64,000 nucleotides of DNA from Fistulifera solaris (Eukaryota > Bacillariophyta > Bacillariophyceae > Naviculales > Stauroneidaceae). Below are positions 38,616 through 56,583 of the stretch, one piece after another (position 1 is the stretch's first letter; the number at the start of each line of letters is the position of its first letter). The notes under the pieces are model-generated. The model made no database searches. It saw nothing but the letters and a program-made list of their open reading frames with translations, and was not told the origin of the DNA. The stretch covers positions 1,612,001 through 1,676,000 of the forward strand of contig AP026125.1 of assembly GCA_030295235.1 (NCBI GenBank), in the 5' to 3' direction. A program made the position numbers and the translations under genes.

Positions 38616-39236
38616 ATGCGCGCACCATCGAAAACGTTTCTTGTTTGGAGCCCACTGCTCCTTTGCTTTGTTTGGAAGGCACATGCCTTTGAACATGGTC
38701 AGTTCGTTCGAACTCTGAGAACTTTTTCGACGGCCCGTCCCGTGTCATTCACAGTTTCGGATCTTGAATTGGATGATTACCGTGAATACGAATCAGTAGA
38801 GAGTTATCGGGTTCATTCGAAACACGCGGAACAAGTTGCTGGGGTCTACAGAATTCTGAGCAAGACGCAATATATAAACTTTTTGACGTCGGTGGGGAAG
38901 AACAAAATCGTTGTACTGAAAATATTCGCTCCTTGGTGCCGCGCTTGCAAGGCGCTGGCCCCTAAGTTTTCGCAAATAACCCAAGATGAGAGGTACAATG
39001 ACAACTTGCCCATTGTGTGGGCAGAACTGAGTGTACTGTTCAACAAAGAACTTGTCGTCGATGAACTCGCGGTAGACGCCCTTCCGACGGTACAATTCTA
39101 TGTGGATGGAAGACTCGAAGACAGCTTTGCGTGTGGGCCGACCAAGCTTGTCTTACTGAAACGCAGACTTGCCCAGATGATTAATGCCAACGTCGATACG
39201 CAAACACGACAACTCAAACAACGCTCCTCATCCTAG
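38616..39236 (+). CDS. Thioredoxin-like protein with WCRAC site, plastid leader
   Basis: A thioredoxin fold follows the leader: KIVVLKIFAPWCRACKALAP, then cis-Pro segment ALPTVQFYVDGR. The active site is CRAC rather than CGPC, which changes the redox potential. The leader MRAPSKTFLVWSPLLLCFVW ends in KAHA followed by FEHGQF, the Phe-led plastid cleavage pattern. The frame extends further upstream, but the ATG at 38616 fits the leader best. 206 residues. The downstream gene starts with a close paralogue of this domain (APWCRACKAL, LALPTVQFYV), so the two arose by tandem duplication. Confidence 0.87.
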   Translation: MRAPSKTFLVWSPLLLCFVWKAHAFEHGQFVRTLRTFSTARPVSFTVSDLELDDYREYESVESYRVHSKHAEQVAGVYRILSKTQYINFLTSVGKNKIVVLKIFAPWCRACKALAPKFSQITQDERYNDNLPIVWAELSVLFNKELVVDELAVDALPTVQFYVDGRLEDSFACGPTKLVLLKRRLAQMINANVDTQTRQLKQRSSS

Positions 39237-40090: not shown

Positions 40091-42065
40091 ATGCGTCTCG
40101 CTTGCTATTCCTTATTGCTGGCAAGTACTTCGGTATGGTCTTTTTCGATCACAAGAAGTCCTGCAATCTCGACTACCGCACTTCATCGCCCGCATTCGTT
40201 AGCCTCGTCGTCCCTACATCCGTATACATCATTGGCTGTCTCGACGTCGTCGCATCCGAGTGCGACGTTTGCTCCGGAACTGGGCAGTGATGGTCTGTAT
40301 CATTTACAAAACAAAGAGCAGCATGCGGAGCTCATGAAATCCGTCGGGCAGGATAAGATTGTCGTACTGAAAGTATACGCTCCCTGGTGCCGAGCTTGTA
40401 AGGCGCTCGAAGCAAAATTTTGCAAGTTCGACACGACCCGAAATACAGTAATCTTCCGATTGTCTGGGCGGATTTAACAATTCAACACAACAAAGAATTT
40501 ATCAAGCAATTGGGTGTGCTGGCATTACCTACGGTTCAGTTTTATGTACAGGGTCGTTTGATTGATACATTCCCTTGCGGTCCATCGAAAGTGCCGATAT
40601 TGAAAAGGAAACTCGCTTCGACCGTCAATACGCACGTCGATCCAGGAACGATGCAGTTGAAACCTTTAGATATGAGTGCGATAGAGCTATCGTATCAAGA
40701 GGGCAGCTATGAAGGAGCTGAGATGGACTCGGAGCAAGCAGACGACGCAACCGTGACGACTCCTGCAGCAACGAGTCCCAAGGCTTTGTTGAAATCACCC
40801 TACCGCCCTGCACCCGCGGCTTCTGCAAAAGTCGATCTCGATGCTGAACTATCAGCTGAAGATCGCAAACACATGGAATCGATCCCTTACTTTTCGGAGC
40901 TTTCGTTGGCAGATCGTGACGAGGTTGCGGAAAAAGCAACGTTGGTCACTTTTGCACCTGGCAGTATCATTCTCCGAGAAGGAACACCTGGCAACTCCTT
41001 CTATATGCTCAGTTCAGGATCCGTGGAAATTTGTCAAGCTGCTACGTATTTGTCTGATCCACTCGTTTCACCGCCACCTTCGTATCTAGGAACGGTCATC
41101 AACGTGCTAGAAAATCCAGGAGACTACTTTGGGGAACGAGCCTTGCTAACTGGTGAGCCGCGCGCTGCAAGTATTCGAGCAAGCGATCAAGAGACAAAGG
41201 TGTGGGTATGGGACAAAAAGATTTTCCTGCTAGTTCAGTTTTATCAGGACGAACAAAGTTTGCTTCAGCGCGCAATGTTTCCGTGGATGACAAGTACGGT
41301 CTCAGCGTTGTTTCGTTGCAGTCCGATACCGCCGATTGGCAACAGCGTACTGTCAACGTTGCCAATCAGGTACGAGGAAGCACAAACTCGCCCTACATTA
41401 TTCGCGGAGTTGATACAGATGATGATGTAGAGTACGATGAAGAGTTGCTGACTAAATCGTCGAATGATTTTGCAGTGGAAAGAAGCGACGAAGTCATTTT
41501 GTCACTGTTGTCGAAATTCAAGATGGTGCGCTCGATACGCAATTGTTTGAACTATCTAGTTAAAACCAGGGCGACCTGGGGTGATTCAGGGAATCGCATA
41601 CGGCGCTCTTTGTTAGTGTCGCGATTGACGCCTGCACAACGGGCTGAATTTGCTGAGGCTTTTGAATTTTCGGATGCTAACGGCGACGGTCAGATTGAAC
41701 TGCAGGAATTGAAGCGAATCGTATACAGTATGCACAGTGGAGAAGAGGGAGAAAATGAAGCTTTAGACCAGGAATTGCAAGTCGCTATTGAAAGAAACAG
41801 CGCAGGACCGGCCGTGTTAGATTACACCGATTTTATGGGCATCATGGCAGAATCTGAGTTTTATTTCCTTTTCAACGACATTTTCGCATCGCTTGATACG
41901 AACAATTCTGGTTATGTGAAAGCGATGGACCTTGACCGAGTATTATCTGGAGTCCGCGATCTGATTAGTGATGACCGAAACAGTATCATTGACGTGGAAG
42001 ATCAAGACATGCTGATCGACTACGAACAATTTACACGCATGTTACTAGGTACAAGTCTACAATGA
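40091..42065 (+). CDS. Thioredoxin / cyclic-nucleotide-binding / EF-hand fusion protein
   Basis: About 658 residues with three modules. First is a leader (MRLACYSLLLASTSVWS, then FSITRSP, plastid-like) and a thioredoxin domain (VYAPWCRACKALEAKF, LALPTVQFYVQGR). Second is a cNMP-binding domain (APGSIILREGTPGNSFYML and phosphate-binding cassette GDYFGERALLTGEPRAAS). Third is a C-terminal EF-hand pair: canonical DANGDGQIELQE and a degenerate DTNNSGYVKAMD. The frame breaks twice. It is restored if the T run at 40418-40421 and the A run at 41215-41219 each lack one base. The cassette keeps the Glu and Arg that bind the ribose and phosphate in PKA/PKG-type domains, so binding is plausible. Function unknown; the combination suggests redox control by cyclic nucleotide and calcium. 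Confidence 0.85.
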
Positions 42066-42514
42066 GGTACACGACATATCGCTTTGAAGAACTACCACTG
42101 GCAACGGGGCACATGTCACTTTTCGCAACTAACAACGACGCAAGCCGCCTACAAAACTTAAATTAAGAAGCGCTCTTTCATATCCTCATCACGTATCGCT
42201 AGCTTCTGTGCCAGAGCTCTGCAAAGAGATGTTTTCTCGTTTCCGGAGGTCCCCACAGCAAGACGAGACGATTCCAATGAACTGCAAACAAATTTGTTGA
42301 AATGTCATTGCTTCGATTGTTGAGGGACGACTTTGCAACTCCTTCCATTGATGCTGTAACTTGTAAACTCATTCAATGACAGCTTGGTCATCGATTCAAA
42401 TTTCGAATTGATTAGCAATCTCTTATTTTGATGGCAACTTTCCTTTCCTCGTTTGTAAATAAATAGAGACGTTTGCATTTTGTTGTCGCAAAACTTTTGC
42501 GGCACGTGAAACAC
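42066..42514. other. Intergenic region before the minisatellite
   Basis: It holds the 3' flank of the fusion gene. Nothing was recognised. Confidence 0.35.
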
Positions 42515-42738
42515 ACCCCCACATTTTCTGGAAAAGTGAAAAACCACACTCCCACATTTTCTGGAGACGCGGAAAAACCAAACACCCACATTTTCTGGAA
42601 ACGTGAAAAACCACACTCCCACATTTTCTGGAGACGCGGAAAAACCACACCCCCACATTTTCTGGAAACGTGAAAAACCACTCCCCCACATTTTTTGGAC
42701 ACGTGAAAAACCGCACTTCCACATTTTCTGGAGACGTC
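42515..42738. repeat. Minisatellite, seven copies of a 33-34 bp unit
   Basis: Seven copies of the core CACATTTTCTGGA are followed alternately by AACGTGAAAAACCACAC and GACGCGGAAAAACCA variants, so the array looks like a dimer-based higher-order repeat. The outer copies are the most diverged. All three minus-strand frames stay open through it, giving Phe/Gly/Trp-rich repeat peptides that are by-products of the repeat. It sits 136 bp upstream of the next gene. Confidence 0.9.
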
Positions 42739-42873
42739 AAATCCCCTTTCGTGGCGTGCTTCGATGACGTAGGTTGCTGTTTGCCCCCGAGATAAAAAAG
42801 ACGCACAATGAAATAAAAAACTTTTCACCTTGCATTTATTTGTCATTCATTACTTGTAAAATCAACGATCATC

Positions 42874-43606
42874 ATGAAAACGTCGTCTACACTTATTTGT
42901 CTGTACCTCCTGTTGGCTCCCCACTTCGTGGGCTTGGGTGAATTCGAAAACAGGTAGCCAAGTCGTCCGATCAGCGTTCAACACGAAATCGTCTTCCACC
43001 CGCTTGAATGGATTCTTGGAAGACATTTTCAGCAAGGCACAATCCTTTGGAAAGAAAAACGTCGTGGAAGCCATTGCACCTCCCCAATACGACCCTGTTA
43101 CGATTGAACCGGATTTTCGTGTCGCGGCTTTGTTTTTAGGGTCGGGCATCCTCTTGGACACCATCCCTTACATTCAATTGACGCTCGGACCTCTTGTCAC
43201 GCTTTTGGGACTCCTCTTTTTAGTGCAAACATTCCGCATTCGTTTTGTTTTGAACGAAGACAATGCTCTGGAGCTATTGACCGTGAATCCTTTCACTGGC
43301 GAGACGAAGGATTCCGGAGAGAACGTCGTGGTGGGCGGAGCCAATGTTTGGGCGACTTCGTCCATTGTGAACTATGACTTCTTTCCTCCCATCAACAGTT
43401 CCCCCGTGGGACCTATTCTGGTGTACTTTAAGGAGACCCAAACACCTTCCGAAACGTGGAACCAAGGTCCTGGCGCCAAAGCGAATGACCCGGAAAAAAT
43501 TGCTGCTGGCGAAGCTGTAGCTGGACAAGTGCATTTCTTTCCAGCTGTTTGCAAGTCAGAGCAGCTGCGGGACGAGTTTGTGAAGCGGCAAGTTGCTAAG
43601 CTTTAG
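42874..43606 (+). CDS. DUF3119-like protein, probably plastid
   Basis: The ATG at 42874 opens a hydrophobic leader (MKTSSTLICLYLLLAPHFVG). This joins the main frame if the GGG at 42936-42938 is one base too long, giving about 243 residues. The body has two adjacent hydrophobic helices (FRVAALFLGSGILLDTI, LTLGPLVTLLGLLFLVQTF), then a beta-rich domain (NEDNALELL, VVVGGANVW, PVGPILVYFKETQ). This resembles the DUF3119 family of cyanobacteria and plastids, judged from memory. Biochemical role unknown. Confidence 0.65.
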
Positions 43607-53928: not shown

Positions 53929-56583
53929 ATGGGCAACCAACCTTCTTCTCAGCAATCAGAGTCTTACGTTGGTGAATCTTCGAAAAGTAGCGACGGAACG
54001 CCTATCCCTGCGGCTGCAAGAGATGATAAGGAACGATTTCGCTCTTTTCCTGGGTCAGCGCTGTTGGAGAAAACATTTTGCGGAAGTATAGACACGACAG
54101 ATCCATCCGAATACCAGAACCAATCTATTGCAACTCGCCTCATGCACAAAGCCGATGTCATGTGTATACGATCACCGAGAAATTACGGCGTGGGCACACC
54201 GGTGAATCGATGGATGGACGACGATAATGATATACTCGAACACAGTGGCAAGAAGCCGTCAATTTCATCGGCTCTTTTGGCTAGGGCGCTGGTGAACGAA
54301 GTAACCGACAATCCGAAAACAATGAATCCTGCACAAATGGCTGCTCGTGAGAGAAAACTTCTGAAAGCACAACAGGCGGCGCGAAGTGGGCCGGCAAGGC
54401 ACAAGCCGATCGGAAAGAGCGGTGCGGGGTCGGCCCACCCAGCGTTCTCAACAGTGTCGCGTACGCTTTGACGGGTCAGGATAATATGCTGTGTATCGGA
54501 AATAGTCAGGTGGTGGATGATGTTGTTGTGAGTAGTGCCTTGCAAGATGCGTTTGGTGAACACGGGGGAAGATCAGGGGCAGGTGAAGGCAGCCATTTGG
54601 CGCTGGAAGAAGCCTTGCACGATAAGAGTCCGTTCGTTGTCACGATTGCGTTATGCCTGAGTCGTCGTTCCGAAGATGTGGGACATCCAGACTCGATTAC
54701 TCGACAAAGTGCTTTTGATTTTAATGAGGTGCAAGATCGAGAATACAAGTATGTCAGCTCTACGGATGCTATGGGCTGGCGTGCTGGCGGGGGTGAAAAG
54801 GGAGGACCGACTAAAATAACAGGGACGTCTAATTTGTCCCCAGCACAACCAGAACCAGGCGTGGTGAAGAAAGCTCATCGCGATGATCTACATTTGCCCA
54901 TAATACACTTGGACTGTGGGTCTGCTGAAGGTGTTGGCCACGTAATTCACTCGTTGGCGAGCGGAGATATATTTATACCACACATGGCGGTCTTACCGGA
55001 TTCGTTGGCAGTGCACGGGAGTCCTTTGCCGGATTTAATGTTGAGATGGCAATGCGACCGAAACGAGGATGTTCCAGTAGATGAGTGGCACAACTGGTGC
55101 CTGGAGTTCATTCACAACCAAATATACGAATACTTTCACCAAACACCCGTTCGACCGATATGGATGCCCCGACCATTTAATGTTACACTGGCAAAGGCGG
55201 TGCGATGGAGAACTGTCAAACATATGAATCGGTATTTTAGTCTGACTGAACAAGTTCTGGAACGTTGGAGAGAAAACGGTCCTCAATATCTGGACCCACA
55301 ATCTTCAAATTCAGGCGGAGGCCCTTCAGCTGATGAAATCGCCCGCCCGCATGGTATTTACTTATGGCGAAGGGTCAACGGTGTAACACAGCCAACAAAC
55401 TACTTCGCGCCGAATTTCGACCCTCCATACACAACGAAAATGACGAGGTGCTTACTTGAAACGGTATTATCGAAGAGCTGGGATACCCAACGACGAGAAT
55501 GGTCAAACCGTCCTCTTCCAGTCATTCTTTCCCCCACTGGTTTATTACAGGCTGCATGTGGGTGCACTGAAGTCGGTGGATTCGTCGCACAAGAGGTTAC
55601 CAACAAGGCTTCACCTACCGTTCCCGCTTCCTTTTCCTCAAAGTCAATGCCTCAAATCAAGCGTCTTTCTTCTCCATCTGCGGAACACTCCTTAAGTGAT
55701 GGCATCGCAGACGAGAAGAAGAACGACGACATTCCAATATCAGAGGAAGTTGTATCTGTTTCAAGAAAATCTCAACCCAGGCAATCGCTTTCCAGTACAA
55801 TAGACGAACCTGGTGTCTCGGGCAATTTTTCTGTAGCACCATCAGGCACAACTGTAATGCACCGAAATCTTTCTCACCTACCAGTTGGAAACCAAGGACA
55901 AGCGTTTGTTCTCGGACGACGATTGGGACGCAGCTCACACACAAGTGGCAGATCCGCCAGGAGAGAAGGTATGAATTTGAAAAGATTTGCACTGAAGTTT
56001 CTTCTGTCGTGTGTCCTAACATTGCGCGTTCTAATTGCAGGTTACGGCGAGTCCACAGGGCTACGCAAGCTTCCAAACTGAATTACAGTCAGGCAAGATG
56101 AAAACAAAAGATAATCGGTTAAACGTAGCGAAAGAAGCCAACGGGTCTCTCCGCACGTCTTCACACCACAAAATGCAGCTGAGCCCTCCTGGACAAAGTT
56201 ACAATCAAGCTGTGTCGCCAAAAGTGGATTCTAGTGATTCTTATAGTTCTTTGGCTTATTCTGTCGGCAACTCATCGGGCCACACAGGCATCGTATCTGG
56301 GTATACATCAAATATCGGTCAGTATTACGCAGATACACCTCCATCACGGAGGTCATCGGCTGTGGCCAAGTCATTATCATCAGAAGAGGAATATTCTATC
56401 CAGGAGTCCAGCAGTAGCTTGTCCGTTGTTCCCACCGACGAAGAGCTGTATGCAATAGGGTGGGCAAAAGCTTTGGATCCAAAGAGTGGAAATTTCTATT
56501 ATTTTACGCTGGACCGGAAGAAAATCATGTGGGACAACCCGCTACCCAGGATGTCTGTCAGGGGAAGTATAAGAGGTTTATAG
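53929..56583 (+). CDS. WW-domain protein with N-myristoylation motif
   Basis: The start MGNQPSSQQSES is a good N-myristoylation signal (Gly2, Ser6). The C-terminal WW domain is IGWAKALDPKSGNFYYF followed by MWDNPLP, with both Trp and the final Pro. The middle region contains DEWHNWCLEFIHNQIYEYFH and a compact Trp-rich segment of unknown fold; the rest is Ser-rich and disordered. One intron (55969-56040, 72 bp, GT-AG) separates the exons. The frame breaks at TTT 54467-54469 (one base missing) and near 55880 (one extra). With these, the sequence reads QLETKDKRLFSDDDWDAAH up to the splice site and is in phase across it, giving about 860 residues. Probably a membrane-tethered scaffold. Confidence 0.7.

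Follow-up and report, generated by a model that had tools for sequence, protein, structure and literature searches.

The window that we analyzed, a stretch of 64,000 nucleotides (C5:1612001-1676000) from a genome of 51.7 Mb in 61 contigs, carries on its forward strand a gene whose parts are, in order, a leader, a thioredoxin, a cyclic-nucleotide-binding (cNMP-binding) domain, and a calmodulin-like part (Table 1). A diverged partner of the window occurs on contig C6, aligned in 18 blocks that are 82.2-92.4% identical, and many domain matches elsewhere in the genome also occur as similar pairs on two contigs. Pairing of this type, along with the 87 matches to light-harvesting proteins, fits the genome of an allodiploid diatom. 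Fistulifera solaris is such a diatom; its homoeologous chromosomes form 42 pairs (PMC5935921; PMC13276009).

In the window copy, the gene starts with the ATG at 40091, ends with the stop codon at 42063-42065, and is split over three frames, with one switch near 40417 and a second within 41200-41218. The corresponding open reading frames (ORFs) are 40091-40477 (leader and start of the thioredoxin), 40420-41430 (rest of the thioredoxin and cNMP domain), and 41202-42065 (EF part). In the C6 homeolog, the thioredoxin and cNMP domain are encoded in a single 441-aa ORF. The C6 query used for the Pfam scan was a 659-residue protein with an X placed at the frame switch that the copies have in common; Thioredoxin matched at residues 80-163, cNMP_binding at 287-380, and EF hands at 521-587. 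The first-pass annotation of this DNA had proposed the same domains in the same order, and the profile search bears this out with scores above the curated cut-offs, the cNMP and EF parts each matching their families.

Table 1. Features of the thioredoxin - cNMP-binding - calmodulin-like gene and its tandem paralog (window coordinates)
Feature	Position	Strand	Evidence and remarks
Thioredoxin-only paralog in tandem; WCRAC; Phe-led leader of its own; lacks cNMP and EF parts	38616..39236	+	Pfam Thioredoxin 45.8 bits
Whole gene, thioredoxin - cNMP-binding - calmodulin-like	40091..42065	+	Three successive frames in window copy; ORFs, codon-phase classes
Leader: short signal-like segment, hydrophobic; Phe at putative +1; Ser/Thr-rich stretch next	40091..40285	+	Hydropathy, composition
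Thioredoxin domain	40325..40575	+	Pfam PF00085; WCRAC active site 40385-40399; ALPT segment
Frame break 1	40416..40420	+	TTTT in window copy, TTTTT in C6 homeolog; private to window copy
Linker, thioredoxin to cNMP	40634..40840	+	Open in both copies; dN 0.033, dS 0.19
cNMP-binding domain	40945..41229	+	Pfam PF00027; final few residues past frame switch
Frame break 2	41200..41218	+	Common to both homeologs; A-run: AAAAA in window (reaching 41219), AAAA in C6
Linker past cNMP domain, coding in EF frame	41219..41480	+	Codon class; dN 0.026, dS 0.32
Calmodulin-like domain	41589..42047	+	Pfam EF-hand families; calmodulin alignment
EF1 loop, canonical, DANGDGQIELQE	41673-41708	+	Complete, judged by eye
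EF2 loop, degenerate, without ligands	41796-41831	+	Judged by eye
EF3 loop, near-canonical, DTNNSGYVKAMD, Asp at position 12	41895-41930	+	Judged by eye
EF4 loop, degenerate, without ligands	41994-42029	+	Judged by eye

Just 3' of the gene lies a minisatellite (42512-42741; 33-bp unit, 6.9 copies). The next gene downstream encodes a DUF3119 protein (42938-43606, forward strand, start uncertain; C6 copy at L009:4098-4856, 69.2 bits), whose leader also looks plastid-type by eye.

Proteins targeted to secondary plastids begin with a signal peptide, followed by a transit peptide with an aromatic residue at +1. The Phe-led leader named in the first-pass annotation is present in the sequence: Phe occupies the putative +1 position (codon 40142-40144, within VWS-F in both copies), the hydropathy peak over 10 residues is 1.84, and residues 19-55 include two Lys or Arg, no Asp or Glu, and 16 Ser or Thr, the first acidic residue being residue 63. 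Based on this anatomy, the leader is a putative bipartite targeting sequence, and the protein is probably imported into the plastid. ASAFAP has been named as a plastid-targeting motif (PMC5462543). Between the C5 and C6 copies, the leader has the highest dN of all blocks (0.069).

The thioredoxin domain scores 44.1 bits against Pfam PF00085 in the C6 protein (cut-off 23.5), and the broken piece in the window copy alone scores 23.5 bits, exactly at the cut-off. Both catalytic cysteines are present and the WCRAC motif occurs in both homeologs, so that the WCRAC thioredoxin fold claimed earlier stands; the ALPT segment is presumably the cis-Pro segment. For the two thioredoxin blocks, dN is 0.010 and 0.019 and dS is 0.26 and 0.24 (C5 vs. 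C6). In a PDB search with a 120-residue thioredoxin query, disulfide-isomerase domains outrank plastid thioredoxins, and "Thioredoxin-like 2-1, chloroplastic" is among the matches (query residues 6-109, E 1e-7). An NCBIfam scan of the thioredoxin-cNMP part returned 10 families, mostly thioredoxin-fold models, every one of them below its cut-off. We also considered an ACHT-type C-terminus and rejected it (a 48-residue query had nine matches with E of 1 or less, none better than 0.11). The tandem thioredoxin-only paralog is 51% identical to the fused gene over query residues 34-197 for the C5 copy, and 59% identical over a shorter stretch, 57-193, for the C6 copy. The presence of this neighbor suggests that a thioredoxin gene was duplicated, and that the sensor parts were then either acquired by one copy or lost from one.

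Key residues of the phosphate-binding cassette of cNMP domains are a Gly-Glu pair and an Arg. The cassette at 41128-41172, FGERALLTGEPRAAS, has all of these, is intact, and aligns to kinase cassettes. Pfam cNMP_binding (PF00027) matches the window piece with 57.1 bits (E 1.9e-15) and the C6 read-through protein with 55.4 bits (cut-off 27.5), in agreement with the earlier claim of a cNMP domain with an intact cassette. In a PDB search, the closest solved relatives (E 1.4e-21 to 3.5e-19) proved to be Toxoplasma PCR12 and cGMP-dependent kinases. The domain is like PKG/PKA-type cNMP-binding domains in fold family and in the FGERALL..EPR.ASI cassette; it differs from them in an additional loop that appears ahead of the cassette in alignments and in its effector, which is a thioredoxin and not a kinase. 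A preference for cAMP or cGMP is not readable from the cassette. Across 40843-41199, none of the 119 residues differs between C5 and C6 (dN 0, dS 0.30). A single-sequence AlphaFold model of this part has low confidence (mean pLDDT 42.3) and gives no support.

The C-terminal part aligns to calmodulin along ∼150 residues (37-189 of a 194-residue query; E 1.3e-11). On the C6 protein, four Pfam families score above their cut-offs: EF-hand_6 (35.0 bits, cut-off 25), EF-hand_1 (30.6, 25.4), EF-hand_7 (31.3, 30), and EF-hand_5 (26.3, 25.9); EF-hand_1 reaches 39.0 bits on the window piece. The first-pass annotation had reported a canonical EF hand. That loop, DANGDGQIELQE, is indeed there, as EF1; it is not a lone EF hand, however, and belongs to a calmodulin-like domain with four EF positions. 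Calcium-competent loops do not occupy all four, given that EF2 and EF4 look degenerate by eye. Only one of 194 residues differs between C5 and C6 over 41481-42062 (dN 0.002, dS 0.28). A CDPK-like junction ahead of the EF part was considered and found unsupported (the best 60 of 223 PDB matches include calmodulins, calmodulin-based sensors, and centrins). The single-sequence AlphaFold model of the EF part likewise has low confidence (mean pLDDT 49.4) and gives no support.

The two degenerate loops, as judged by eye, bear on the question of whether these genuine domains still sense anything. The cNMP domains of some other protists bind other ligands, and the sensors here could similarly have stopped sensing, leaving a scaffolded or constitutive thioredoxin, or a cNMP domain with a ligand of another kind. 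We consider this unlikely, however: the cassette and the canonical loop are intact, and 0 of 119 cNMP residues have changed at a dS of 0.30. Between the homeologs, all coding blocks together give dN 0.016, dS 0.262, and dN/dS 0.061 (Nei-Gojobori, 636 codons, excluding the switch intervals and the initial 27 bases). These codon comparisons indicate that purifying selection is strong on all three domains, and also on the stretch right past the second switch in the new frame.

How many proteins the gene makes depends on the two frame breaks. Because the C6 copy joins thioredoxin and cNMP domain in one open frame, break 1 (the T-run at 40417) belongs to the window copy alone; an assembly fault in homopolymer length and a real null copy are equally possible explanations. 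Break 2 is a different matter. Ahead of it, 39 of the 49 homeolog differences in 40421-41199 fall in codon class 0, and past it 45 of the 53 in 41219-42062 fall in codon class 2, including 20 of 23 in a single class just beyond the break (41219-41516). When a four-state path with self-set rates is fitted to the window alignment, the phase switch falls at ∼41216, with no gap nearby and no noncoding stretch called between the frames. Codon-phase constraint is thus carried across the switch into the new frame, which argues for one product, and we infer that the thioredoxin, cNMP, and EF parts are translated as one chain. The first-pass annotation had treated the parts as one protein. For the thioredoxin and cNMP domain, this stands on the single C6 ORF; for the EF part, codon phase argues in the same direction, yet an internal ATG (41208) permits a separate EF protein.

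Our preferred reading of break 2 is a doubled homopolymer miscall, with the A-run probably one base short in both assembled copies. The conserved coding sequence compared between C5 and C6 (32.8 kb) has 149 gap columns, of which 20 are isolated one-base indels and the rest are clustered with other gaps; some are at ORF ends. Of the 20 isolated indels, 16 are in runs of at least three bases and 13 in runs of at least four. Run-length differences inside conserved coding sequence are seen at window positions 38884 (in the thioredoxin-only paralog), 7164, 18044, 28159, 28541, and 63267, among others, and such one-base differences are either assembly faults or decaying copies. An identical fault at one place in both homeologs is nevertheless unlikely for random sequencing error, and this counts against a miscall. 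The window alignment shows seven phase switches. Four of them coincide with a one-base gap; the other three, which have no gap within 40 columns, are at 54425 (with a homopolymer gap 42 bases off), 52434, and 41216, which is clean.

Three other explanations of break 2 deserve consideration. The first is that the locus makes a thioredoxin-cNMP protein that ends at the frame-2 stop (41428-41430) and a separate calmodulin-like protein that starts from ATG 41208. This ATG lies within the 19-base switch interval, in the downstream (EF) frame, with the same bases in both copies, and the break itself is common to both homeologs. However, although constraint on frame 2 holds as far as the last difference ahead of the switch, the tail of this frame shows none (11 of its 63 residues differ, and the two copies stop at different places, 41430 vs. 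the equivalent of 41412), a second promoter or internal initiation within the coding region would be required, and the EF part has no copy in the genome beyond the homeologs at E 0.01. We think that two products are improbable. The second is a spliceosomal intron joining the cNMP and EF frames, for which both copies offer GT...AG pairs of fitting length modulo 3 (19 listed), the best candidates being 41206-41258 (53 nt) and 41153-41247 (95 nt). The shorter candidate contains only three homeolog differences, all in the coding third-position class, and for it coding is favored by ∼1500 to 1 under self-set rates (0.19 for third positions, 0.02 for others, and 0.20 for noncoding sequence, the last leaning on one OGDH intron region of 79% identity and on flanks of 76-80%). 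The longer candidate would excise the core of the phosphate-binding cassette. An intron is very unlikely. The third is programmed -1 ribosomal frameshifting at the A-run. The sign of the shift is right, both copies have it, and the window copy reads C-AAA-AAG. Frameshifting of this kind needs a slippery heptamer, a rule that C-AAA-AGG does not fit, and this is what the C6 copy reads; moreover, shuffled versions of the 80 bases that follow in the window copy fold equally well (z 0.18). It would be most surprising if frameshifting proved to be the explanation.

With at least 82 thioredoxin, at least 55 cNMP, and at least 93 EF-hand_7 matches (all lower bounds), the only same-strand thioredoxin-cNMP pairs within 4 kb among the matches found are those of this locus, on C5 and C6. 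No same-strand thioredoxin-EF pair within 4 kb was found among the matches, the EF-hand_7 set being one that misses weak EF parts, including that of this gene; a calredoxin-type gene may therefore lie elsewhere in the genome. Same-strand cNMP-EF pairs within 4 kb occur at five other places (on contigs C3, C4, C13, C34, and C35). The C34/C35 and C3/C4 loci are like this gene in that sensor domains for calcium and for cNMP lie on the same strand, less than 4 kb apart, and unlike it in having two cNMP matches each. At L001 (C34) and L005 (C4), a protein kinase lies beside the EF-hand and the two cNMP matches, on one strand and in adjoining frames; this effector, again unlike that of our gene, is assigned by Pfam for C34 and by eye for C4. 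The EF match of the C34 kinase ORF is below the Pfam cut-off. These two loci would pair calcium and cNMP sensing with a kinase. On C13 (380000-384500; L043:158-3115, reverse strand), a 985-aa ORF combines a cNMP match (27.4 bits, just under the cut-off of 27.5) with EF hands and a three-repeat mitochondrial carrier, and may be a carrier with calcium sensors and a possible cNMP sensor; in its homeolog (L044, on C14), the frame is broken into shorter ORFs in the portion examined. We rejected the idea that this carrier protein and our gene have a cNMP-EF module in common (BLAST alignment across the switch, E 0.30; equaled by 1240 of 2000 shuffles). Pattern searches of viral and prokaryote contigs hit 8 and 16 stretches, none of them a relative. 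Our literature search, which covered few subscription papers, found no described protein with thioredoxin, cNMP-binding, and EF-hand parts.

In calredoxin, the EF part lies N-terminal to the thioredoxin. Here it is C-terminal (thioredoxin - cNMP - EF), the opposite order, and unlike in calredoxin two of the four EF loops look degenerate. Calredoxin (CRX), from the chloroplast of Chlamydomonas, has four EF hands and a thioredoxin whose activity is calcium-dependent (PMC4911631; see also PMC10602609), and it needs calcium for efficient reduction of the 2-Cys peroxiredoxin PRX1 (PMC4911631). Our gene is similar in pairing a thioredoxin with a four-EF, calmodulin-type part, apparently in one chain and with a probable chloroplast location. 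It differs in its cNMP domain: the abstract on calredoxin names none, and "cyclic nucleotide" and "cAMP" do not appear in the text (PMC4911631). We class the protein with the calcium-thioredoxin kind and not as calredoxin itself, given the different domain order and the added receptor domain.

TrxL2 and ACHT are atypical chloroplast thioredoxins of plants. The active site of TrxL2, WCRKC (PMC6882916), has Arg after the first Cys, as here, although both of our copies have WCRAC and not the TrxL2 subgroup motif itself. The redox potential of TrxL2 is higher than that of typical thioredoxins; FBPase, SBPase, and Rubisco activase are oxidized by TrxL2 but not reduced, whereas 2-Cys peroxiredoxin is reduced very efficiently (PMC6882916). 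No cNMP or EF parts are mentioned for TrxL2 or ACHT in the available text of that paper, unlike what is found in this gene. In diatoms, stromal calcium goes up in high light and with H2O2, and KEA3 and DSP proteins are named there as calcium-binding candidates (PMC11663583); the main text of this report makes no mention of "thioredoxin."

On balance, we lean slightly toward the view that the gene encodes one nucleus-encoded, probably plastid-imported thioredoxin of an alga that looks like a diatom, with a C-terminal cNMP receptor and a calmodulin-like calcium receptor, working most likely in the manner of calredoxin. The calmodulin-like part would bind calcium via EF1 and probably EF3, calcium binding would alter its packing against the thioredoxin, and the change in packing would switch thiol exchange with a partner, for example 2-Cys peroxiredoxin. 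A second allosteric input would come from the cNMP domain. Taking together what is known of calredoxin, TrxL2, and diatom stromal calcium, the most economical guess is that a calcium-switched WCRAC thioredoxin feeds or drains peroxiredoxin under light stress. Calcium and cyclic nucleotides may in this way set the redox state of the plastid, as the first-pass annotation suggested, and the calcium half of this idea has precedent in calredoxin (PMC4911631). It is more doubtful that both second messengers gate the thioredoxin jointly, with calcium and cyclic nucleotide combined into one readout, a thiol change in the stroma.

If true, a dual-gated thioredoxin would be a direct cyclic-nucleotide receptor inside the plastid, and would imply cNMP signaling in diatom chloroplasts. 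Thanks to the cNMP domain, a single purified protein would be enough to test whether cyclic nucleotides act within plastids. A calredoxin-like thioredoxin is a direct candidate for converting the calcium signals of diatom chloroplasts into thiol chemistry. Provided that calredoxin has the order of parts given above, calcium sensing would have been joined to thioredoxin in another arrangement in another algal lineage.
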